A DNA stretch of 64,000 nucleotides from Citrus sinensis (lineage: Eukaryota > Streptophyta > Magnoliopsida > Sapindales > Rutaceae), in contig NC_068556.1 in NCBI RefSeq assembly GCF_022201045.2, positions 22,735,501 to 22,799,500 of the forward strand, written 5' to 3'. Shown piece by piece: positions 6,065 to 55,433 of this stretch. Numbering within the stretch: position 1 is the first letter of the stretch; each line of letters opens with the position of its first letter. Under the pieces are notes generated by a model. It searched no databases, was not told the origin of the DNA, and was given only the letters and a program-made list of their open reading frames with translations. A program made the position numbers and the translations under genes.

Positions 6065-8192
6065 TTAATTTATGATGGGACGCAATACATTCGCTTTCAG
6101 ATTCACCTTCCTGTTCGCGTTATCCAGGTACTCCTGCAAATGTGAAAGTTTAGATAGATGCAACTCTAAGGTTAGAATGGTGACCCTGGAAACAAGTGAA
6201 CTGACAGAAAGAAAAATGGAAATAGGCATTTCAAACAATGGACATAACTTTCAAACTAAAATTTCAACCATTAAAAAGGTATTACTTGATTCAACTAATG
6301 CTACAGTTTGAATTACCAACCGTCAAATTGCTAGTCCTCATAGATAATAAGTTGATCGATCATTTACACTGTTTTTCTTGAGATTTGAGATAAACTCAGA
6401 TTGCATTATAATGCAACCCACTGTTCTAGAGAAAAACTAATGAAAGTTACACATGATAGGGATGAATAGAAAGGAACCTGCAATATCCCAACAGCAGCAA
6501 ACTTGTCAAGTATCGTCTTATGCTCAACTGGGTGCAAATCCAAAGGATTCAATAGCAATTCCACACCCTGTGAAGAAAAATAAACCGTCAGATTCTGTAA
6601 TTTGTATGATCAAATTCAGAAAATTTTATAACAATAAAGCATAAGCATGATAAAAATAAATAAATGGGAAAAACTTTTTTTGGCACTGTTATCCAACCTA
6701 ATTCTGTGGATTGGTTATTCTTTGAAAGCTTTCATATAAAAAAATTTGATCCAAATTTTCATTGGGTTACAACAGAGCAGAATGAATTTGTACACTTCCA
6801 AACATAGGACATCTTTTGATTCACAAACTACCTAGCAACTGAAGTGAGTTATAACCTGTTGCATGTGCTTCTAAGATATGCTTGAGTGAAAAAATCCCAC
6901 ACAACACTCACCTTTGACGTAAAACCCTCATTCCAATATGCGTACTTCATATCTTCAAGTTTTTTGGTTGCAGAAAGGTCGTCTATAAAAAGCTTCACTT
7001 GCACAGCCTGATCAAAACAAGAAAAAGATTATAATCAGAAGGGATCACATAAGATATGACATTGACAAATAGAGAGATAGAAGAAACTCACATCAGCTGC
7101 ATTCTGTTGTCTATTAAAGGGATAACCTACAATGAAGCCCTCTAGATTAAATTCAGAGATCTGTATAAACACAATAGGAGCATGGATAAGTAGAATTTTA
7201 AAGTTGCCAAGGTTAAAAAACATACCATTTTGCATACGCTCTCAGATATAAGCACACTCAGTAATGTACCACATTAATCACGCATGGATAGGTGCAGCAA
7301 AACACATATTAAACCGAACAGAGTGGTGATATATATGTTTAAAAGGTAGCATATGCTCCACAAAGTAATTACGTAACTAGACTTCAAGATCATTGAGACT
7401 TGAAACAAAAGGTAAAGCATCATAAGTATATTGTTTTTAAGTCTTTGAAAATAAGTGAGGATTATATTCTATTTTTGTGGTTTATTTTTTGATGGACAGA
7501 GCCAAGAAAAACACCAGAATATAAATCACAAATCCCTAAAAAAGTGGACAATTAATCATTACTCAACCACATATGTTAACACTGGATCACGGGATGAGAA
7601 ACCTTTTAGCCTTTCAACAAGAAGTTTATCAATCAGAAGTAAAATTGCAATTTCCAAATGACATAACGATTCGGTGTACACTAACAATATTTTCCATGGA
7701 TTATTACCTACAAGTGCTTCTCGTCCTACACCCCAAAGGAGATCAAACTCTCAAAAATGACTACGCTAACTACTAAAACATGAAAAAGGGAAAAAAAAGA
7801 AAAATACAGAGAAATGAACTTACCAGGCTTCGAAAATCCTCAGCCATCAAATCTATAGTGTTCTTTTTCCTTAGCAAAACGCTGCGGCATTGAGAATAAT
7901 CCATGTAATAAACATAATAAGAAAAAGAATTAAAAAAAGTAAAGAGCCATCTTGATTAGAAATCAAATTATAACATTCAGAGTTCAAGAACAACTCTAAC
8001 TTTGTTGATATTAAAATATTCATATGCAGTAAGAAAATTATACCTTAAAGGTGATGCAATTTTGTTCTTAGGGTCTGAAATAGATAGCCCAACATACTTA
8101 TCACCAACATCCAAACCAAGGAACCGACCACGTTTTGATACTTTTCTCTTCAGCATTTGCTCGAACAATCTCAACGGCTTCACGTACTTCAT
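6065..8192 (-). CDS. YqgF/RuvX-like RNase H-fold nuclease (putative pre-16S rRNA nuclease)
   Basis: Six exons on the minus strand, 8192-8044, 7881-7824, 7160-7092, 7007-6912, 6567-6478 and 6133-6065, give 176 residues. Every junction is GT-AG and keeps frame. Features: LGLDVGDKYVGLSISDP at 25-41 holds the first catalytic Asp (D28), GFIVGYPFNRQQ near 76-87 is the YqgF core, YWNEGFTS at 116-123 replaces the usual DER-type motif, and LDKFAAVGILQEYLD at 144-158 holds the last acidic residue (D145). Bacterial YqgF trims the 16S rRNA 5' end and belongs to the Holliday-junction-resolvase fold group; plant relatives are uncharacterised and may act in an organelle. There is no obvious transit peptide. 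Asp-to-Asn at 118 is an oddity next to the retained E119. An in-frame ATG four codons upstream (8204) is an alternative start; the chosen start begins MKYVKPL as in the Arabidopsis relative I recall. Confidence 0.9.
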
Positions 8193-10084
8193 CTGCAATT
8201 CCATCCATTAGAGGCAATATTGAATCTTTTATCAAATATTGAAGCATACACGATACCCAGTAGGGCAATGTTAAGATGAAGTAATCCAAAGTTTCTAATC
8301 TATGCTTATTTTTCAGCGTGGCATTTTCACAGACAGTTGGTGGACACAAAATTTGGAAGATACGCAACGACGAAGGTTAAATGAATGAGTGTCTTATACC
8401 TTTTAAGAAAAATAATATTAATTATTAATTATGTGAGAATTGAGAACTGAAAAATGAAAATGAAAAACTTTCTGACGGTTATGAGACGCGCGGCGCGGGA
8501 GGCGACTGGTGAGTGCGAAGGAAATGACTGAGCGCAGCGGGTTGGTTAGTTCAGTGAAGGCCTGATTACAAACAACCTAGTATTCCATTTTCCATTTTGT
8601 GATGGCTAAAATGTCAAATTAGTGGTCTCGAAAATTTATTTGTGGGTAATTCAATTTCATAATCATTCACAGGTGTGGAACAGTGGAAGTTTCCTTTTTC
8701 TTTTAATGCGGACAAGCAATGTGATTTAATAAAGTTAATTTGTAGGGTCTGATTATATTGAAAGAGTGTTATTATTTATTCTGAATTCTTGTCCTAAATT
8801 TGTGCTCTGAAAGTCAAAACGCACCGTTTGGTTTGGTAAGGGAAAGCGGAAAGTAAATGAAACCAAACCAAACGGTGCGTTTTGGCTTTCGGTGCGTAAA
8901 TTCAGGGTTAGAATTCGAGGTAAATAGCTTTTCTCATATTAGAATCGCTATAAGATAAAATGTACTTTCATAATTATACAATCAAAATTATAATAAACTT
9001 TTTATTATTTATTACTTTACGTGTGTGTCAATGATTCGTATTATATTTTAAAGCAACTCTAAAATAGTTATAGTATAATTTTTAATATACTATAAAGGGT
9101 TGTGGTGTATTCACACCGACTCTATTAAACCGCACAACTTAATAAAATAACGTGTTTGCTTAATAATAATAATAATAATAATAATAAGGACCCCTTGTTA
9201 GAGTACGACTCTACAATTTGATTCAAGTAAAATTTTAAAATCTACTTGAAAAACTTTATTTTAATTAAAATTGATTTCTGTGGAATTGTGGCTGACTGTC
9301 AATTTGTCACCTAACTTACTTGTCCATTGCCCCGACTCGAAGTTGCACCATTAAAATGTCACCCTTTGCTCGTTTAATCCATGCGATTTCAATACACAAA
9401 TCTTTCCCACATCTTTCTACTTTTCTCTCAATACATTACAAACTAATAATTTCAATTCTATTTATAAAAATCGTCTTCTAGTACTCATTAACAAAAAGTA
9501 TATAAAAATATTACCTTATTTCTTGATCTGCAATAATTCATTTAAATCTAAAACTGGAGAGAAAAAAAAATTCTAAAATGAAGAACACACAGTCTATAAT
9601 TATTCAAATTGGCTCCCTTCCCTTCCTTAAGATATTGTCTTCAAAATTGCTTCTTCCTTCTAGGTAGAACTGACCCATCAAATATTAACCGAACTTTAAC
9701 AGACTCTTGACTTACAAAATAAGTATCATCGAGCCACACAATTACAAGTGTCCGAGCTTGTGACATTCTGATGAACATCTTTTCAAAAACATATAATATG
9801 ACTATCAAAAAGAAATTGTTCCTAATTTGTTATGCATACAATACATTTGTAGTCGGAAGTCTTTCTCCCTAATTGACCATAGAACTTGTGAATATGGTGG
9901 TAGTATTATATAATACAGTAATCGACAATAATCCATGGCCCTTACCCTGCTGAAACTCTTTTTCCTTATAAGAATGTCCGAATGAAAAAGTGACCATGAC
10001 ACCAAATTTTTTTCATAAATTTTACGTCCACTTGAAGACAGAATTGTGAGAGAAAAAAAAAAAAAAAAAAGTCCACATTATATT
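8193..10084. other. Intergenic region with foldback element and AAT repeat
   Basis: Probable 5' UTR and promoter of the YqgF-like gene to about 8570. After that comes AT-rich spacer holding the foldback at 8.8 kb and an AAT microsatellite near 9163-9187. No gene was recognised. Confidence 0.5.
8770..8930. repeat. Small foldback (MITE-like) element
   Basis: Arms 8783-8836 and 8863-8916 are inverted copies around a 26-base loop. The inner part is nearly perfect: CGCACCGTTTGGTTTGG pairs with CCAAACCAAACGGTGCG. The outer part is more diverged and ends in GAATTC on both sides, with weaker pairing beyond. There is no coding capacity. The CGCACCGTT motif recurs in the terminal repeats of the element at 47.9-49.0 kb. 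Confidence 0.75.
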
Positions 10085-10327
10085 CAAGTTGAGCAGGTTG
10101 AGCAAACATTGTGCTTCCCCGATATACAAAAATGTGCAAACAAACTATAATGGTCTTCTTAGAAAGATCCAACAGCTGGGTTCTTAAAATATATCCGAAA
10201 CTAGAATGCTCCATCAAATTTTATAAGAACTTTATTTTTCCTCAATTACATAGCTGAGTTTACCCTCTGATCAAAAGACAAGTTGAGCAGGTTGAGGAAA
10301 CATTGTGCTTCCCAGATGTATAAAAAT
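10085..10327. repeat. Duplicated ~49-bp segment, mTERF-tail derived
   Basis: The segment 10085-10133 (beginning CAAGTTGAGCAGG) recurs at 10279-10327 with a few substitutions. The second copy ends exactly at the left edge of the retroelement at 10327. On the minus strand both copies could be translated as a degraded C-terminal tail of the mTERF pseudogene next door, so they look like a local duplication of that gene's end. Confidence 0.65.
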
Positions 10328-10790
10328 GTCATGACCCAACCCAGACCGGGCAAGATATTGTCCGCTTTGGGCCTTAACAAGGCCCGCACGGATTTGTTCT
10401 TGGGGCGCCCATACACCCCAAAACGCGTCTAGACAATTAAGGTGTGGATCACCCCTTATAAACCCAGCATCTCTCCCGTGCTTTGCCGATGTGGGATTCG
10501 CCTAGGGTGTTACATTATGGTATCAGAGCGGCTCCGCGTGTCCTCTTGAGCGATGGTGGGGCAAACCTCAACGAGGACGCTGAGTCCCCAAGGGGGGGTG
10601 TATGTAACACCCTAGGCGAATCCCACATCGGCAAAGCACGGGAGAGATGCTGGGTTTATAAGGGGTGATCCACACCTTAATTGTCTAGACGCGTTTTGGG
10701 ATGTATGGGCGCCCCAAGAACAAATCCGTGCGGGTCTTGTTAAGGCCCAAAGCGGACAATATCTTACCAGGTCTGGGTTGGGTCATGACA
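10327..10790. mobile_element. TRIM-like retroelement with inverted terminal repeats
   Basis: Two 188-bp arms, 10327-10514 and 10603-10790, are inverted copies with four differences that I count. Each arm starts TG and ends CA, as LTRs do. The 88-bp centre begins, three bases after the left arm, with the primer-binding site TGGTATCAGAGC and ends with a purine tract AAGGGGGGG just before the right arm. AAAAA flanks both sides (10322-10326 and 10791-10795) as a possible 5-bp target duplication, though in A-rich DNA. Normal TRIM elements have direct repeats; here they face each other, so a transcript would fold into a long hairpin. Each arm carries CCCACATCGGC and a TATA-like TTTATAAGG in the right-arm sense. 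There is no coding capacity. It sits inside an mTERF pseudogene. The arms and flanks are seen directly; the element class is inferred. Confidence 0.8.
10518..10529 (+). other. Primer-binding site (initiator tRNA-Met)
   Basis: TGGTATCAGAGC is the standard plant LTR-retrotransposon primer-binding site, complementary to the 3' end of initiator tRNA-Met. Its place three bases after the left repeat is what an LTR element would show. Confidence 0.8.
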
Positions 10791-11345
10791 AAAAATCTCT
10801 ACAAGAAGGTTTTTTCAGGATACTTTAATAACGTACAGCTAGTACTCTCCTTGGTCAAACCTCTCGATAACAAAAACTAAAGTACTGCACATCTGGGAAT
10901 AATCTTCTTCTTGAGACCCAGAGTAATAACAATGGAACATCTAGTAATAACTAATGATTTGCAACCCATTTTGTTCGCAAAAATATCTATTGCTGCCATA
11001 TTCTTATCAGTGGATGCAATCGTATGCCAAGGATACATTTTAAAAGCAGCTAAAACCTCCTCCGCAGACCAACCCCACCTCTTATAAAGATCAAGTTTTC
11101 TTTCCCACGGGGATTTACTAAATAAAACTTTTGCTAGAATTGCTGAAACAAACTGTAATCTCAAAGGATTGATACCCATCTCTCTTATAACTACTATTTT
11201 CTCCTTAAAAAGGGTTTCGGATTCGTAAAGAATACTCGGGGCCAAGAATCAATCAACTTAGCAATTTTTTAATTGGCCACACCACAATCTTGCAAAATTT
11301 TAATATTGGGTACCAAATAATATCCAACGCACCGTCTTGTATTGG
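10791..11345 (-). pseudogene. mTERF-family pseudogene, broken by retroelement
   Basis: Minus-strand translation gives a run typical of plant organellar mTERF proteins, including VPNIKILQDCGV, KLIDSWPRVFF, VVIREMGINPL, ERKLDLYKRWGWS, EEVLAAFKMYPW and LLKYPEKTF. mTERF repeats bind organellar DNA or RNA and act in transcription or splicing. This copy cannot work. There is a stop after GVAN, a one-base frameshift before LFKEK, a TAG after RCAVL where the family has Gln, another TAG near TFL, and then the 464-bp retroelement. Degraded remains of the C-terminal tail continue at 10326-10085. The N-terminal half is missing. An intact parental copy is expected elsewhere in the genome. Confidence 0.85.
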
Positions 11346-11872
11346 ACTCTTTTTAGTTTTAGAGAGCAAGACACTGTTGACTTAGGCTGGGCCATAAACA
11401 ATTTTATCGCGGAATTGGCCATTAGTTAATGATTTGCGGAAAATCTTGTTTTTTTTTCACAAACTAAATTAAATTACTTGTTTTCACCGAACAGTAAATT
11501 AAATCCTCCTTAAACTTAATTATAATTTTTGTTACTTATGTCTCTTCATCATTCTTGATTGTTGCAATAGAAGGTTAATTTGATCATCTTTGAACGTTGA
11601 ATAGAAGACTGATTTGACCATTTTACACATAGGATGAAAATGACCAAAATCTTGCGTTATAATGTTTTAACTAATACTAGAGATCCACATCTGTTTGTAT
11701 ATTTAAGCAAATATCACTGGAGATCCATGTATTCTTGTCCATATTTCTTTCTAATATCAAATTTTTTGATAAATTCCATGTGATTAATTTGCATTTAGTT
11801 TGTTTTAATGGTAAAGAGTTTTTATAGTGGTACAATATATGATTACTGTCAAGCTATAACATGAAAAAGAAT
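11346..11872. other. Intergenic spacer
   Basis: AT-rich sequence between the mTERF pseudogene and the CACTA element. The first 30 bases or so may still be mTERF-derived. Nothing else was recognised. Confidence 0.5.
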
Positions 11873-14394
11873 CACTACAAGAAATTTGACTTTTTAAGAT
11901 GATGTTTTTTTAAAACAGTTTTAATTTTAGTCACAGAATGGTACTTCTTATGACCATTTTTTTTAAATCGTAGCCAATAGTCTCATCCTAACTTATGTTA
12001 TATTTTATAACTAATAATTTCTGTTTTGAAACTCGTTAATCGGCCACTAATTCGATTTTTTTACGACAAATATTATTTAGTCACAACAAGAATATTTTTT
12101 TTTTGCACATAAATTTCCCTTCAAAACTAAACATTTTAGGACAATATTTCATCTTTAATGACAAAAATTAAATCGTTGAAAAATATAATTATAGGCAACA
12201 AAACTATTTCGTCACTAAAAACAGGTGTAAATTTCAATAAACCATTGTGAAACATAATATTAGTCTCAAAAACTATTCTTGTTTTTTTTTTTTTATAATT
12301 TTAAGATCTCGTTTTTTACTTACAAATAATTACTCATCGTGACAAAACTAAAAAATAATAGTAAAAAATATTTTTTAATTAATATGACATTTTATGACTA
12401 AAATATTTTGTTGGCTAAATATTATTCTAGGTGACGCAACTATTTCATATCTGAAAAAGTAAGGTAAATTTAGTCAAACCATATGTAATACAAAATTTTA
12501 TTCTCTAAAGCTATTATAATTTTCACTATTTTTATTTTTTTGTCATAGACAATCACATAAAGTGACAAAAGTAAAAATAGTAGTAAAATTTATGTTTAAT
12601 TTGGACATAAATTTTAGTAGTGAGAATAAAATTAAATTATAAAGATTATATGGCGGCATTGGACTATTTTTTGTTATATTGGGCAATAACTAAAGTTTTT
12701 AGATTGTGATACAATTCTTTCACCATCAACCAATCTAGTGCCATGTGGATAAAAATTATACTTTCACACATTTATGTCACCCATTTCTTAACCTATCTTT
12801 TCCCCGATGTGTTTAAGTGTTAACCCTAATTAAAAGAAAAAGGATAGAAACCCTTTATTTTCTATCCTTTTTTTTTCCCCTCCACGTGCCACTTCTTTTT
12901 CTCAACTCTCAAATTCTCACATCTGATAAAAACAAAGCCGCTGTCATTTCATCCATCTCTTTGACAAGGTTTGTATTTAATTTACCGTTGACATTTTATA
13001 TTTATTTATTGTTAAAATTTTTTTTTAGTAAAATTTATTGACCTTTATTTCGATAATTTTTCCTAATCATCAAAGATGAGGAGGCAAGGACAGGCAATTG
13101 GCTATGCTCTACACAATAACAGTCGGTGATGAAGGTATAAAATCATGTCTAGGACTTGACTTTTACTTATTTACAAATTGGACCTAAAGAAAATAAGACA
13201 ATGATTTTCTTCTTTTAACTAATTTTATTTTGTCACTAGCATTTGATCTTTATTTATTATGATTGTATATTCAAGATAATATAGGCAGAGTTTGGGGAGA
13301 CCAGATATGGCATTTCAGTTGGTACAAAAAGGTATGTACCGAGATGCAAGCTCTAAATTATTATTATCTTATTAAATAGTTCTTGAATTTGAAGAACATA
13401 CTTGGTCATTAACAAAGTGAACAAGATATTGTTTGCTATTATATCACTTTATATATATATGTGTATCTTTTGTTTTATTAAGTTATTATTTATTATTTTA
13501 ACTTTACTTTGGATGAATTTTTTTTTTTTTAATGTTATCTTTGTGTTTATTGTAGGATAATAAGACCGATGGCTCTAATGTATTAGTTTGGAAGCATTTG
13601 TAGAAGTCAATTAGTTTGGAAGTATTTAAAGAAGTCAATAAGAGACAACTGCAATCAATTTTTATTATAATTAGAAAAAGCATTTGAAGAGTAACTCGCC
13701 ATTTAAGGAATTCATTGATAAAGATCAAGGACCAAGACAATTAGGTATCTTTTTCAATTTTCTTAATGTATTGCTTTAAATAATTGATATTTGTACATTT
13801 TGTAATTGAATTTGTATGATGACTTTGTAAAGTGTTTTTAATTTTTATTTATTTAATTTTACCGTCATTTGCACATTTTGGTTTATCGATGTTTGAAGTG
13901 TTTTATTTGTTAATAATAATGTATGGTTATGTTACTTGTTTAGACTAATTATTTCAATCGCCGAGTGTTTTTAACAACAAGAAAAAAAATCACCAACAAC
14001 TTTTTGATATAAAACAATTAGTTACAAAATAAACAATTATAATTTGTAACAAAAGAAATAGTCACAAATCCTAAAAATTGGAGACGATTAGTTTTAGTCA
14101 CTGAAAGTAACATTTAATGACTACAAAATGTTGTTGCAGATATGTTTTCAAACTACTGTTTAGACATTTTAATACTATTTTTTATTTCAAACTTTAATTA
14201 GAAACAGAACATTTGATCATGAAAATGTATATTCTTTAGTGATGAAAACAATTTGGCCACTAAAACCTTTTAAGACAGTTTTTCCATGACTAATATGTGA
14301 CGATTTATTTTTGGTTATATAAAATATAAAGTGACTAATTTGGTAAATTTAGTGACTAAATCTTTTGTTAAAAAATATCATTTTTCTTGTGGTG
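11873..14394. mobile_element. Non-autonomous CACTA (En/Spm) transposon
   Basis: The left end is CACTACAAGAAA at 11873-11884, the hallmark CACTA terminus. The right end at 14383-14394 reads TTTCTTGTGGTG, whose complement CACCACAAGAAA matches with one change. Three-base flanks AAT (11870-11872) and AAT (14395-14397) give the expected 3-bp target duplication. Both ends carry many short subterminal repeats such as TAGTCAC and GTGACAAAA in either orientation, typical binding sites for a CACTA transposase. The 2522-bp interior has no transposase-like frame, so the copy would need a helper element. The middle (about 12.8-13.7 kb) is not repetitive and is unidentified. Confidence 0.82.
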
Positions 14395-26823: not shown

Positions 26824-27852
26824 TCAAAACAGTGAATAGCCGAAGTCAACCACATTACCACCAAACAATGGAGTTGAAGAGGAGCTAGCTGATGAAGAAG
26901 AAGTGGCTTGAGGCACTATCCCATGGCTAGGGTTATGATAATGATGGTCAATGACTGCAGGATCAGACAAAGCTCCCATGGAGCAGCCATCTTCAGCCAT
27001 TATTGGGTTGTTAATCATAGCAGAAAGTTCATTCATCTCCCATGACTGCTGACGATCATCCCAAAACCCATCATTGAACTCACCAAAGTAAGAGAAATCT
27101 CCAGCCATATATGGCTCTGTTGGCAGCACAGTGCTTGTCGTATCCATTATTGAGCAAAAGCTTTTTTGATCATTTGAGGCACCAGAGTTGCTATTAGCTT
27201 GATGATTTGAAGGGGGGTTTAAGCAACTATCAGGAACAATGCAGCCCAGGTAGCCAGAGTTAGAATTATCAGGTTCAGAGAAAAAGAAACCAGTATCATC
27301 AAGTGATGACCCATAGGAAGTTTCATTAGTACTGGTTTCATTATTGGATGTGATAGTGATCTTAGATGTCGTGTTATTTTCAGAAATGTCAGGCTGGAGC
27401 TGCTGAGGTGGAGCACTCGTACTATTTTGAACTGTGAACTGTGATGATTGTGGTGGCGGCGGCAAGAGAGCTTGGATATCAAAAGGTGTAAGAAGAGAAT
27501 GGAAAGTTCCATTGTCAGTGTAAATGAAGTTAGTTCTAGCTTGTGCACCTTTCATTGAAAGTGCAGCTCTGTCATAAGCAAGAGCTGCTTCATGAGCAGT
27601 ATCAAATGTGCCAAGCCAGTGCCTTTCTTTAGTTGTAGGGTCTCTTATTTCAGCTGCATATCGTCCCCAAGGCCGCCTCCGCACGCCAAGAAATCTTCCA
27701 GGCTCAGGCTGCTTTCTTCTTCCTCTTTTTTCTGATGATGGAGATGCACTGTTGGGGTTTCTCTGAATAAGAGCAAAACCCATTTGAGCTTGGCCTTGTT
27801 CATCATAGCCTTGGAAAGGTTTATCTAAGGTTTTGGAAGTACTACTAGACAT
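26824..27852 (-). CDS. PUCHI: AP2/ERF transcription factor, PUCHI/ERF086 type
   Basis: A single exon of 342 residues beginning [17 protein letters not shown]. One AP2 domain spans about residues 53-110 ([20 protein letters not shown], then HWLGTFDT and AYDRAA), followed by [12 protein letters not shown] as in the group VIIIb ERFs PUCHI, LEP and ESR. In Arabidopsis PUCHI specifies floral meristem identity and lateral-root primordium patterning, acting in the nucleus on GCC-type sites. The C-terminal two-thirds is Ser/Thr/Asn-rich and ends [10 protein letters not shown] chose this ATG because MSxSTSKTLD agrees with PUCHI. An in-frame ATG at 28047 would add 65 residues, mostly encoded by a GA/CT repeat, and is more likely leader. 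Position between the CCCH gene and ObgC matches Arabidopsis. Confidence 0.88.
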
Positions 27853-27883
27853 TGCTGTGATTGTGAAGAAGATGGAAAATGGT

Positions 27884-27885
<2 letters not shown>

Positions 27886-27918
<33 letters not shown>
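27886..27918 (-). repeat. GA/CT microsatellite in PUCHI leader
   Basis: About 16 AG units lie just upstream of the chosen start. Read in frame from the upstream ATG they encode a Leu-Ser repeat. Confidence 0.85.
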
Positions 27919-27920
<2 letters not shown>

Positions 27921-30900
27921 TAAAGAGGCTGTAACAGTTTCTTGTTTTGAATGGAAGCTGTGTAGCTGCTTGAGGAAGTGTAGGTAAGTCTTTTAAAGAC
28001 TGTGAATTGGACAAGGGAGAGGAAGAAAAGGACACTGCAAGTGTCATTCCTTACCTTTTCCACCTACTTTTTTAAGATCTCTCTCTCTCCTTGCTTCTCT
28101 TTCTATGGTTTTAATTGTCTACGTATTAGATTCTGACCGTAGTCCATTTACATTTATTTATCAAATTAGCTTCAATTTCAAATAATTCTAATTATGCTTT
28201 TAGAACTTAAAAATAAATAGCTAAATCTCATTATTTTAATAATGAACGGGTAAATTCTAATATTTTCTAAATAAACATTCAAACTCATTAATGTTATTGA
28301 ATTTTGTCTATTTGAATAAAAATGAAAACACTGTAATACATTTATTTCGTAGATATTATAATAAATAAGTGTATTTACTAACTAAAGGGACTGCATATTA
28401 CGGTTTTGAAACAACGAAATCATTTGGGTATCCCATTTAGTAGAAAATATTTGAAAGTCAGAATTATTTATATATGTTAAGAACTTAATATTATCATTGT
28501 GATGTAAAGGTTACATCAGATGAATGCAAGCTAAGCTATCTGGGGTTGATAAAATTAAACTTATAATGATCAAGTCACGTGTTAGAGCTACACTAGAAAT
28601 CTACCTTAAATCGACATACACCTCTCCTATTTATAGCCCTTTGATGCTATTATGATGTTATACTAAATCGTTGATGCCATTAAAAATGACAACATCAAAG
28701 CAACCATGCATACGGGAATGTCATACTTAATTACTATAATTAATGAAGAACATGATTGAGTGAGCACTGGTGGGTAGCAGCAAGATGATGAGTATGATGG
28801 TAGGATCATTGCTCGTATAATTTTCAAAACCAGTAAAAACAAAAACCGCTGCATATAAAATGGTTTTGTGTTTGCAAAAAAACTTCTTGAGAGTCTCGAA
28901 CGTTTGAATGAGAAATTTACTCATTTTAGTAATAGTAAGTTGTTTTTGTAATAGCTCTGGTATTATGCACATGTGAGTCCTCATTTTAAGCAAAATAAAT
29001 CAATGAAATTACTTGTCTGATTCATGATTTTCAAAGGGAGTAGTTAAGAATATTATCTCTAACTAAGCAGAAAATGCCTAAGAATATGAGGCTCTCGTGT
29101 CCAGAATCATGGAAACAACCACCCCACATTAGAGTACAAGCCAAAGGGCCCATCATAAGTGTGTCTATAAGTCAAAATAAGCCATTTTTTATTTGTCATT
29201 TTGCACCTAGTTTCTCAATTTTAATTTGGTCTTATTCTTATATTTCTATTAGGGACAAAGTTGGGGTAACCTTGCAACTGTTGCAAGGTAGCTGGATCCT
29301 TCTATTAGTAACTTGATCTTAAAAATGACATATTATCTTATTTAGAACGCAATTTTTTAATAAATAATTATAAAAAATAATCAGTTGTGTTAATATAAAG
29401 TCAAGTTACAAACTACAAGTATTTAGTAAATACTTTAACAGCTTAACTTTTGCAGGTAAACAGATGTACACTATAGGTTTTTCTTTCACAAATAGCATGG
29501 CTTCCTGTTCAATTCATTTTAAGTAAAGCAAATTGTAATTCACAGAAACATGGGTCTTGTCTCTGATCTCCAAAAGCAAATTGAAAAGGCTACAGTCAAA
29601 AGGGCAATCAATAGATTAAAAAACAGATTGTAAAGCAAGATGAAATTTAATTAAACCGCCCAAGCAAAAGCATGAACATGGTGGGCACTCGGCACTAATT
29701 AAGAGTACATTTGTTTAGTAGTTTCTACAGGAGTTTGATCAACTCAATTTCATCCTCTTTGATAAGATTAGTAGTTTCTACAGCACCACGATCAATCTAA
29801 TTTCATTCTCTTTAAAAAGAAGAATTTTAGAATACATAAAAGGTATTATATCCACTATATAATAAATAAATAATGTTATATTATATGATCATTTATTTTT
29901 AAAAAAATTAACATGTAAGTGATAGTTATGTTAAATTTAATTACACATATAATAATTAATTGTATGGTTCATATGTACCATCGACTTTCTCCTTTGATAG
30001 TCCTAACATGCCTAAAATGGCATTGGGAATGACAAAGCCTAGTCATAATTATCAAACGGGTCAACTGTTGTCTTGTTTTTATAACATTTCCAAATTCTAA
30101 AATGCTTAGTCACTAGTCATTATAATGGCAACTCTAATTAGTAGTCTTACTGACCTAATAAATTAAGCCTAATCAATCAAGAAAGTAATGTATTTTAATT
30201 TGACGCGGTAGAACGAATATAATATGGAGAAAGAGAGAGATTTATTAAAATAATTTAATCAAATTAGGTATATTAACTAATCGTCTTTCATTTCTTTTAA
30301 GAAATGTGACATTTGCACTTGTTAAAATCTACAACCCTTGACTCATCCACTAAAGATTTGAAATCGACAGGATGAAATTCCATTTGACTCGTGTATTTAT
30401 CTAAATGGGCAAATGTCCATATCTACGAACATGGTATCATAATGTTCCCATGTGGAACAAAACATAGGTTAATTATTAAATAACACACAAAATAAAACAA
30501 ATTATTTCTCATTGCACTTAGTAAATCCATACATATAATTTTCAAGTAGGTAACGTTACCTATGGTTTAGTTTGATCAAGAGGTACACGTGCATTTGTAA
30601 TTAAAGAGTAAAAATGGTGGTGAATTTTACCATTTTCAGAGAAGCAGAAAAGTTCAGTCAAGCTTCTCATGAAAAGGTGTGTGCCGAGCCGAGCGTACAC
30701 TTCAGAAAGTAATGCTCAGGAAAGTAAAAATGGTGGTGAATTTTACCATTTTTTTTTCTTTTTTTTTTTTTAAGTGTTCAAAACGTAACGTAAGCTTGTA
30801 ACCTGCAGGTGTAGGGGCCTGTCTCTTCCTTTATTTTCTCTTATTTTCTCTTTTTATCGGATGATCTTCGTCAGCTTTTTTTTCCAAGTTTTCTTGATGT

Positions 30901-37600: not shown

Positions 37601-39085
37601 GTCTGTGATCTTATTTGAAGCCATGCACGCAGCTCACCAGTTTGTTGGACCAAAAATCAGTTCAAATTCCTTTGATGCATATAACACAGAAGTAGCTCAA
37701 TATGTATTTTTCAATTCTCCCTCGGAATGACCTCGACCGATTTCAAAAGCACAAGTGTGATTTATCCAAATTCATTTTCAGCTTAAAACATTAGCATCTC
37801 TCACCCGCTAATAATGATTCTCAAACTCTCATTCATGTCATTGCTTAGTAATCTCATCTTCAAAGTTCTGCTTTGAAAGAAGTGAGTCCTACAATTGCAA
37901 CATTGCTACATGACAGAAATTGTGACAATACTCTTCCATCCACCAATTCTGTGTTCCCCTATAACTGACCCAATATGCCAATATCTAAAATCCTAATAGC
38001 AAAACAAAACCCTTCAATCACCAAAATATAAAACCAACCAAAAGAACTATACAATGCACACAACAATAATAAATAAATAAAAAAAGAACTCACATTTCAG
38101 GACCTTCTTCACCATTCTCAGCAATTCTCGGGACCTTATTCGTTCCACTTTTAAACGATGCGTTTCCTCTACCACCTCTGCCACCCGGCAGCAACAATGC
38201 CTTCTGCCCTGGAACCAATAACTCCAACAAAACCTTCGATTTTCCAGCCTCTCTAATAACTGTCCCTGGCGCCACCTTAACCACTACATCCTGTCCCTTA
38301 GCCCCGCTCTGCATCCGCCCCTGCCCATGACTTCCTCTCCCGGCCCGAAAATGCACACTGTTGCGAAACGGCAGTAAGGAATTCATGGATTCATCAACTT
38401 CGACGTATACATTCCCGCCTCTCCCTCCATCGCCTCCAGAGGGCCCACCCATCGGCACGTACTTCTCGCGTCTAAAAGCCACGACGCCGTTTCCACCGGT
38501 CCCTGCTTTTACGAAAATCTTCGCCCGGTCGAAGCATCGCATTACTGCTGGCACTCCCTTCTCTTTCACATCTTCTTCCAGTTCGCCTTCATAATAGCCA
38601 TTCTCCTTATCAAAATTTTCAATTTTTCCACCGTCTTCATTTTCGCTGCTGTATTTGTCTTCGTCTTCTCCTTCTTCTCCTTCGAATATTTCGAATTGCC
38701 CGTAACTGAGCCCTAAATTACCACCTAGCCCTTCCTCTTCCTCCTCCTCCTCCTCCTCCTCCTCCTCGTCTTCTTCGCTGATGTAATCTTCATTTTCAAG
38801 TTTGGTTTCGTCTTTAACATTCAACTTGGCTACTTCGCAATCGTCGAGCTTAATTTCTGCAGCAAAGACAGCTGATAGATCGTCTTTTGGAGGGAGACGC
38901 GTGTAGGTGGTAGCTTCGCCGCCGGCTAATGGCTGCGGAGGGGCTTTCAGGGAATTGCCTCGAAATTTGACCTTACCGTTGGATTGTTTTGATGAACTTT
39001 TTGGACTACGTCTAGGTTCGTTCCGAGTTCTCGCCCGGCATACGACTTGAATCCGAGATAAGCAGCTTATCGAAATGGAAGCCAT
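34652..39085 (-). CDS. OBGC: Chloroplast Obg-family GTPase ObgC
   Basis: Six minus-strand exons (39085-38094, 37359-37086, 36311-36011, 35872-35722, 35211-35103, 34747-34652) give 640 residues. A Ser/Arg-rich plastid transit-like N-terminus is followed by a very acidic region with a long Glu run (about residues 105-180). The glycine-rich Obg fold spans about 185-330 ([36 protein letters not shown]). The G domain has the P-loop GAPNAGKST at 347-355, then DLPG and NKMD. A C-terminal OCT-like domain ends [18 protein letters not shown]. Plant ObgC (CPSAR1) is needed for plastid ribosome biogenesis and thylakoid development. The Met chosen starts a plausible transit peptide; an in-frame ATG 31 codons upstream (39178) is possible. 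Its position beside PUCHI is as in Arabidopsis. Confidence 0.93.
38731..38777 (-). repeat. Coding GAG/GAA repeat in ObgC
   Basis: A triplet repeat encodes about 15 Glu residues in the acidic linker between transit peptide and Obg fold. Length variation here would change protein length without a frameshift. Confidence 0.85.
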
Positions 39086-39179
39086 TTGTTCGGGAGTTGA
39101 TTTAGCGGCAAAAGTGAACCGAATTGGATAATGGCAGAAATAGTTTTGCAGTTTAACACCAGACGGCGTCGTTTGCATC

Positions 39180-54419: not shown

Positions 54420-55433
54420 TCAAACTTTCAAAAGTTGCATTTTGTTAGAGAAAGCAATTGCAAGCCAATCAGGCTGTGCAGGAGACCATTGGAGTTGGTT
54501 AATTTCAGAGCCAGCAGAGTACATGGACATAGGATCAATACCATTAGGTCCAGCCACTGGTGGCAATGGCAATTCCCAAATGAAAGCCTGCGAATCATCT
54601 CCAACAGAACATATATGCCTACGACTCTGAGGAGCCCACGCAATGGCATTGACACAAGCTCTATGCCTCTCCAATTCAGCAACCGGCAATGTTGGCGACC
54701 TGATATCCAAAATGACAACTTTATTACTGTCCATCAATATAGTTGCCATGTACCTTAAATCCTGCTTATTCCAAGCTAATCTAAGCAATGGGGTGTCGGG
54801 TTGCGGGCTCTCGTAAATAATCGTGGAATGTTCTTTGTCTCTCAAATCGAAAATTCTCACTGACCCATCAGCAGAAACTGAAGCAAAAACCCTAGCTTCA
54901 CCCCAGCAGATGTCGTAAACCTCTTTGTCATGAGCAATAAGTTGAGTTTCAACAACACCCTTTTCAATATCCCAGATAGTGCAAGTAGTGTCGATGCTAC
55001 AAGTTCCAATTCTCTTGGGTTCAATCTCGTTCCAATCAAATGAAGTCAAAGGAGCGCAAAACTCACTGCTCTTGCTGTTGTTGAGCACGGCAACGGGCTC
55101 GATCGATGAATCGCCAACGTCCCAAAGGCGAAGAAAGTCGCCGGATGAAGCGAGCAGATGACGGTTGGAGGAGGATTTGCGTGATGAAGAGTTGGGATCA
55201 AACATTAGCTTGGTGGGTGGGTAAGGGTGGTCAAAGGAGAGAGAGGGATGGGTCTTGATAGAGAGAGATTCTGGCTCGAATGAAACGACGTCGACTCGAT
55301 TGGTGTAGTCTTCAATGAAGCTTCCGATGGCGATGCGTTGGCCGCACACAGCCATGGCGTAGAGAGGGTAAGGAGATTCATGGGTCACCGAGTTCTCGGA
55401 TCTGAGGTGGGATTCTTGGCTTGAGTTTTCCAT
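54420..55433 (-). CDS. TTG1: WD40 protein TRANSPARENT TESTA GLABRA 1
   Basis: An uninterrupted 337-residue frame, about the length of Arabidopsis TTG1 (341) and, like it, without introns in the coding region. Sequence agrees from SPYPLYAMA near the start through [60 protein letters not shown] and [20 protein letters not shown] to SNKMQLLKV at the end. Four WD repeats are recognisable. TTG1 is the scaffold of MYB-bHLH-WD40 complexes controlling anthocyanin and proanthocyanidin synthesis, trichome and root-hair fate and seed mucilage. The clock-related LWD paralogues are less similar. It faces TON2 tail to tail. Confidence 0.95.

Follow-up and report, generated by a model that had tools for sequence, protein, structure and literature searches.

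Background

Inverted arrangements of TRIM parts are already known from maize, where a single 5-bp duplication encloses parts of the element SMART that face opposite ways (Gao 2016, PMC4717578); the TA-TRIMs of that study were confirmed by PCR and sequencing, and the sections of the paper that cover them offer no explanation of how the inverted form arises. Cassandra elements form tandem arrays of alternating LTR and core, for which template switching during reverse transcription is one proposed origin (Kalendar et al. 2020, PMC7215508); these arrays are direct tandems, and the Discussion of that paper does not take up inverted junctions. Tandem TRIMs are also described in PMC11899658, PMC6934838 and PMC4558846, in whose passages on such elements no inverted TRIMs were seen. 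Judged by term counts and titles, PMC4717578 was the only paper in the open-access literature searched to deal with an "inverted TRIM" in the present sense. The form described here, i.e., LTR'-core-LTR with a lone inverted arm, and a series of insertions with U5/U5 and U3/U3 ends, were not found in the same literature, which does not imply their absence from print.

Retroviral autointegration yields circles with inverted LTRs, and MITEs are short, non-coding elements with long terminal inverted repeats and a small duplication. The element analyzed here lies in a 64,000-nucleotide stretch of the Citrus sinensis genome (hereafter the window, to which all positions without a contig label refer). 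As in autointegration, its LTR inversion would have preceded integration; unlike the autointegration circles, the unit is chromosomal, lies inside a target site duplication and belongs to a group with microhomology at the junctions. It resembles MITEs in being short and non-coding, with long terminal inverted repeats and a small duplication, whereas its LTR ends, primer-binding site (PBS), polypurine tract and relatives with direct-repeat LTRs identify it as a retroelement; MITEs and TRIMs are also contrasted in the part of PMC4717578 concerned. With the inverted maize TA-TRIM (the type of Fig. 2C in PMC4717578) it shares opposed TRIM parts in one duplication, and it differs in that the maize case comprises two inverted TRIMs while the left arm in the window consists of a single inverted LTR placed directly against the core on the PBS side.

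Structure of the window element

The TRIM-type element at 10327-10790 (464 bp) consists of an inverted 188-bp LTR, an 88-bp core and a direct 188-bp LTR. A preliminary description made from the sequence alone had placed two 188-bp TG...CA arms facing each other here, around an 88-bp core with a PBS and a polypurine tract; its coordinates were exact and both tracts were found, as follows.

10322..10326, no strand: target site duplication AAAAA, left copy
10327..10514, minus strand: left LTR, 188 bp, inverted, U5 end outward and U3 start inward (minus-strand match to right LTR positions 1-188, 97.9%)
10511..10516, no strand: inverted-LTR/core junction TACATT, as read in the sequence
10512-10515: ACAT, a 4-nt microhomology compatible with the inverted-LTR as well as the direct-LTR side
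10515..10602, plus strand: TRIM core, 88 bp, the same core as in ordinary copies
10518..10529, plus strand: primer-binding site TGGTATCAGAGC, which complements the tRNA-Met (CAT) 3' end of this genome plus CCA
10590..10598, plus strand: polypurine tract AAGGGGGGG
10603..10790, plus strand: right LTR, 188 bp, direct
10684..10686, plus strand: two-base variant, T at LTR positions 82 and 84 (left-arm counterpart at 10431-10433)
10791..10795, no strand: target site duplication AAAAA, right copy

Both arms are 188 bp long with TG...CA termini and are identical at 184 of 188 positions; the four mismatches fall at LTR positions 99, 133, 164 and 167, and, judged against the commonest base, the right arm carries three of the changes and the left arm one. 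The repeat search, which returned the arms as 10327-10515 and 10602-10790, gave a complementarity of 98% and a spacer of 86 nt. When up to 3 mismatches were allowed, the 20-base start of the LTR occurred in the 64-kb window only in these two arms (0.01 occurrences expected). The tRNA 3'-end pattern matching TGGTATCAGAGC was found at 7 genomic places, and all three of the loci checked carried tRNA-Met (CAT). None of the three open reading frames of at least 80 amino acids listed for 8000-14000 overlaps the element.

AAAAA is found immediately outside the element on both sides (10322-10326 and 10791-10795), i.e., as a 5-bp duplication around the whole unit, with which a separate solo-LTR insertion as the source of the right arm fits badly; the preliminary description had overlooked this duplication. 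As AAAAA is of low complexity and the flank is A-rich, this duplication is weaker evidence than those of the other composites described below. The window copy lacks the direct LTRs of a standard TRIM, which ordinary copies of the family possess, and it is a rearranged TRIM-family product, not a standard TRIM. Next to the element, two direct-repeat copies of 51 bp were also observed (92% alike; 10085-10135 and 10279-10329, 194 bp apart); the second runs as far as the element's left border and takes in three LTR bases.

The TRIM family and its junctions

The genome searched (299,734,781 bases in 11 contigs) contained at least 264 matches to the 464-bp element, with 39 of 365 candidates scored. 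Many family copies form direct tandem arrays that repeat at approx. 276-bp intervals, which are TA-TRIMs as this term is used in the TA-TRIM sections of Gao et al. 2016 (PMC4717578). Within one long tandem TRIM array (L024, positions 2151-2401), an LTR carries a reversed 77-bp internal piece, which looks like another small fold-back-like rearrangement.

Exact pattern matches across the genome revealed 196 ordinary direct LTR/PBS junctions. The inverted-LTR/core junction occurred once, in the window, among 42 matches to an exact pattern that would miss copies with altered junction sequence; 30 of these matches were examined with their flanks and the other 12 were judged by the matched string, apart from one in L006 that was read in its locus as a Gypsy-like LTR end. 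An interpretation of all 42 matches to the pattern GGGTGTTACA...GGTATCAGAGC as inverted copies was rejected, as 29 of the 30 flanked loci show a different LTR end ahead of the PBS. Searches for exact abutments of the U3-U3 or U5-U5 type, with 0-30 nt between the LTRs, gave 0 genome matches each. No paralogous empty site was found with the left flank (10136-10326), which matched only itself and a local 48-base copy.

Mixed-orientation composites

Opposed TRIM parts were observed in 12 of 59 mapped TRIM clusters, so that the possibility, raised in the preliminary description, of only direct-repeat copies elsewhere fits the genome badly. The 59 clusters are a non-random sample, i.e., 39 were derived from the scored 464-bp matches and the others from pattern hits, which were partly retrieved by the inverted-junction pattern, and the sample is enriched for mixed cases; by hand count, 8 of the 39 clusters in the scored set show mixed orientation. 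Overlapping loci were merged and pieces more than 60 nt apart were treated as separate clusters, hence the opposed pair at C1:12262908-12263755 (140 nt apart) is not among the mixed clusters. Loci without a TRIM hit (L039, L041, L044, L045, L047, L051, L052, L054-L061, L063 and L064) and window duplicates or tRNA loci (L040 and L070-L076) were left out of the cluster map.

Eight of the 12 mixed clusters have LTR termini at both edges, and six of these eight, the window element included, are enclosed by a perfect outer 5-bp duplication. As controls, flanks of different clusters matched as a 5-bp duplication in 10 of 3422 comparisons, and a perfect duplication was present at 24 of 37 same-orientation clusters with at least 3 pieces. 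The six composites are:

window 10327-10790: U5-out, duplication AAAAA
C1:14950254-14950835: U5-out, duplication CCTAT
C2:31495830-31496426: U5-out, duplication ACATA
C2:6434047-6436305: U3-out, duplication CAAGC
C4:16544917-16548235: U3-out, duplication GAACT
C7:8282092-8284920: U3-out, duplication ATTTG

The two-edged composites without a duplication are located at C8:14954977-14955765 (L002) and C7:9801767-9802806; the other 4 of the 12 mixed clusters have a truncated edge or lie behind a Gypsy-like LTR and are outside this tally.

In the U5-out layout, minus-strand parts run from the U5 end through LTR and core and are followed by a lone LTR out to U5. One arm is a lone LTR in all three U5-out composites with a duplication (partial, LTR 93-188, in the C2 case), as would be expected from copying back to the 5' end of the minus strand. 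The sister inverted composites have their own break points, unlike the window junction; junction microhomology was observed as ACAT in the window, TGGGGC in the C7 array (L068) and ACA in the C2 array. The arms of the C2:31495830 composite, an old insertion, differ at 9 of 86 positions.

One-molecule fold-back was also considered as a general origin of the large arrays and was not supported by a mirror-register test in the C2 and C7 U3-out arrays, in neither of which a mirror-register match between the arms was found (the outermost cores differ at 9 of 88 positions in C2, the outermost LTRs at 7 of 188 in C7). These two large arrays were thus probably formed by the joining of different molecules. 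The same test gave no clear preference for the C4 array.

Private variants common to both arms

The 27-base stretch with the 82/84 variant is found, at up to 1 mismatch, only in the two window arms in the 300-Mb genome, which indicates that the arms came from one molecule or one source. By comparison, two or more exclusive LTR variants were common to different clusters in 5 of 1711 pairs. Private variants common to both arms were observed in 3 of the 12 mixed clusters (two LTR variants in the window element, one core variant at C2:6434047 and one LTR variant at C5:18773419) and in none of the other nine.

Origin of the inverted element

We consider it most probable, with a probability of about two in three, that template switching or microhomology joining produced an inverted cDNA, which then integrated normally. 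A member of the TRIM family would have been reverse-transcribed, and its cDNA would have turned into an inverted (palindromic) LTR'-core-LTR before integration. Most likely, the minus strand, with core and PBS copied, would have jumped, by way of ACAT, onto its own LTR at the U3 start; alternatively, an LTR end may have been attached at the ACAT microhomology. The palindromic molecule would have had a U5 end at both termini, and an integrase supplied by an autonomous element would have inserted it like the cDNA of any LTR retrotransposon, giving rise to the 5-bp duplication. The sequences themselves show the structure, the duplication, the private variant of both arms and the recurrence of U5/U5 and U3/U3 composites, each enclosed by one duplication; that the inversion preceded integration in the window copy, that the strand folded back and that a helper supplied the enzyme is our inference. 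Apparent switching of templates between elements at the PBS in this genome, at the 12 chimeric junction loci described below, also speaks for this explanation, but it is the recurrence of inverted composites in the family that tips the balance towards a pre-integration origin for the window element.

The main rival explanation, which we regard as unlikely, is that an ordinary LTR-core-LTR element was inserted and that its 5' LTR was flipped later in place via its TGT...ACA inverted ends. This predicts the same window sequence, including the duplication and the private variant, and the 82/84 pair fits an in-place flip of the 5' LTR equally as well as it fits one source molecule, as a private variant in both LTRs is expected from a normal insertion. 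Moreover, each arm is exactly one LTR, nothing was gained or lost, the duplication is intact and the exact inverted junction occurs once. On the other hand, a flip requires two breaks exactly at the LTR ends, with 3-bp homology, and a separate process would be needed for the five sister composites, in which LTRs are additional or truncated and one type of terminus adjoins both duplications; judging by their layouts, a simple post-insertion flip would not have left an identical, exact LTR end next to each duplication in these five. Less likely still is the head-to-head joining of two cDNAs (LTR'-core'-LTR' and core-LTR), inserted together, with the left side later shrinking to one LTR. Two-sided composites do exist, i.e., L002 at C8:14954977 and L006 at C8:13338895, and solo-LTR formation by LTR-LTR recombination keeps the target site duplication; but L002 has no matching duplication and L006 is truncated at its left edge, close to a Gypsy-like LTR end. 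Two different cDNAs would also not be expected to carry one variant that the rest of the genome lacks, unless both came from one source element outside the assembly.

Two further explanations appear very improbable. The preliminary description had suggested a distinct self-folding TRIM derivative, which would represent a mobile inverted-LTR subfamily and a source of small RNA; while the predicted hairpin is very stable, the inverted junction was found once as compared to 196 direct junctions, the sister inverted copies break at other points, and the LTR promoters would point outward, so that this suggestion was not borne out. An assembly artefact must be weighed because palindromes are hard to assemble, and it has similarly little to recommend it, given five further composites with different, matching 5-bp duplications and the PCR validation of inverted TRIMs in maize reported in the TA-TRIM sections of PMC4717578.

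The preferred reading, i.e., integration of a cDNA that was already inverted, leads to a broader proposition for which we see the chances as evenly divided, namely that reverse transcription in this plant genome regularly yields palindromic TRIM cDNAs as a by-product and that integrase accepts identical ends (U5/U5 or U3/U3). Integration with two identical ends works in a known system. If the proposition is true, identical-end integration would be recorded in the genome by the six insertions that have perfect 5-bp duplications, and the snap-back of a minus strand onto its own LTR by the U5-out insertions with a lone arm. An apparent one-off thus becomes a series, in which one TRIM family shows inverted composites with varied break points, several of them within one duplication. 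Two questions thereby become testable, namely whether identical ends are paired by plant LTR integrases in vivo, and whether the formation of inverted LTR arrays, a potential source of hairpin RNA, precedes insertion rather than resulting from chromosomal rearrangement.

Predicted hairpin RNA, age and neighborhood

The hairpin that the preliminary description had proposed for RNA of the arms was predicted to be very stable (-418.8 kcal/mol, as compared to a shuffle mean of -163.1; z = -37). Its expression from the element itself appears doubtful: as U3 lies on the inner and U5 on the outer side of both window LTRs, transcripts started by the LTRs would lead away from the core and not include the hairpin, which makes an LTR-driven hairpin transcript unlikely, and transcription of the hairpin would need read-through from outside. 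An mTERF-like coding fragment (10877-11245, minus strand; Pfam match at 10880-11245, E = 1.6 × 10-6) adjoins the insertion. Its frame continues past a first stop toward the insertion and contains a second stop; given these stops it looks like a pseudogene, with the inverted TRIM adjoining its 3' end. To judge from the sequence, transcription of this fragment, if any, could run into the window element.

The insertion sits in a gene-bearing region; long open reading frames at 26824-28047, 38090-39178 and 54420-55433 (minus strand) resemble, by their translations, an ERF/AP2 factor, an Obg-like GTPase and a WD40 protein, respectively. With a substitution rate of 1.3 × 10-8 per site per year for plant LTRs, the 4 differences in 188 positions between the arms give an age of about 0.8 million years, an estimate that gene conversion between the arms would make too young.

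Chimeras of Gypsy-like LTRs and TRIMs

At 12 of the 30 junction loci examined, a foreign LTR end is followed by the PBS and the TRIM core. These chimeras are found around position 1501 of loci L042, L043, L046, L048-L050, L053 and L065-L067, and, with other LTR ends, in L038 and L062; most of the foreign LTR ends belong to one Gypsy-like family. Three of the 12 (L048-L050) are spaced 7,800 bases apart at C4:18564218, 18572018 and 18579818 and probably represent one event; the spacing suggests a tandem array of a Gypsy-like element that carries a TRIM unit. At C4:18564218 and C3:34184461, PBS and body of the larger element come after the TRIM unit, with this PBS being the second one in L046 and L048. 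A 2-kb piece between two of the C4 junctions showed matches to reverse transcriptase, RNase H and the integrase zinc-binding domain in Ty3/Gypsy order, with an integrase core match below the curated cut-off, and a gag match was found in L047, beside another junction.

From their sequences, the chimeras look like products of template switching between RNAs at a shared PBS, and this would fit co-reverse transcription of the Gypsy-like element and the TRIM. The Gypsy-like elements are possible members of a helper pool for the TRIM family, while the domains and chimeras do not show that such an element moves the TRIM. L006 (945-1779; from C8:13338830) holds a head-to-head TRIM composite that follows a Gypsy-like LTR end with PBS at a distance of approx. 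40 unrelated bases.
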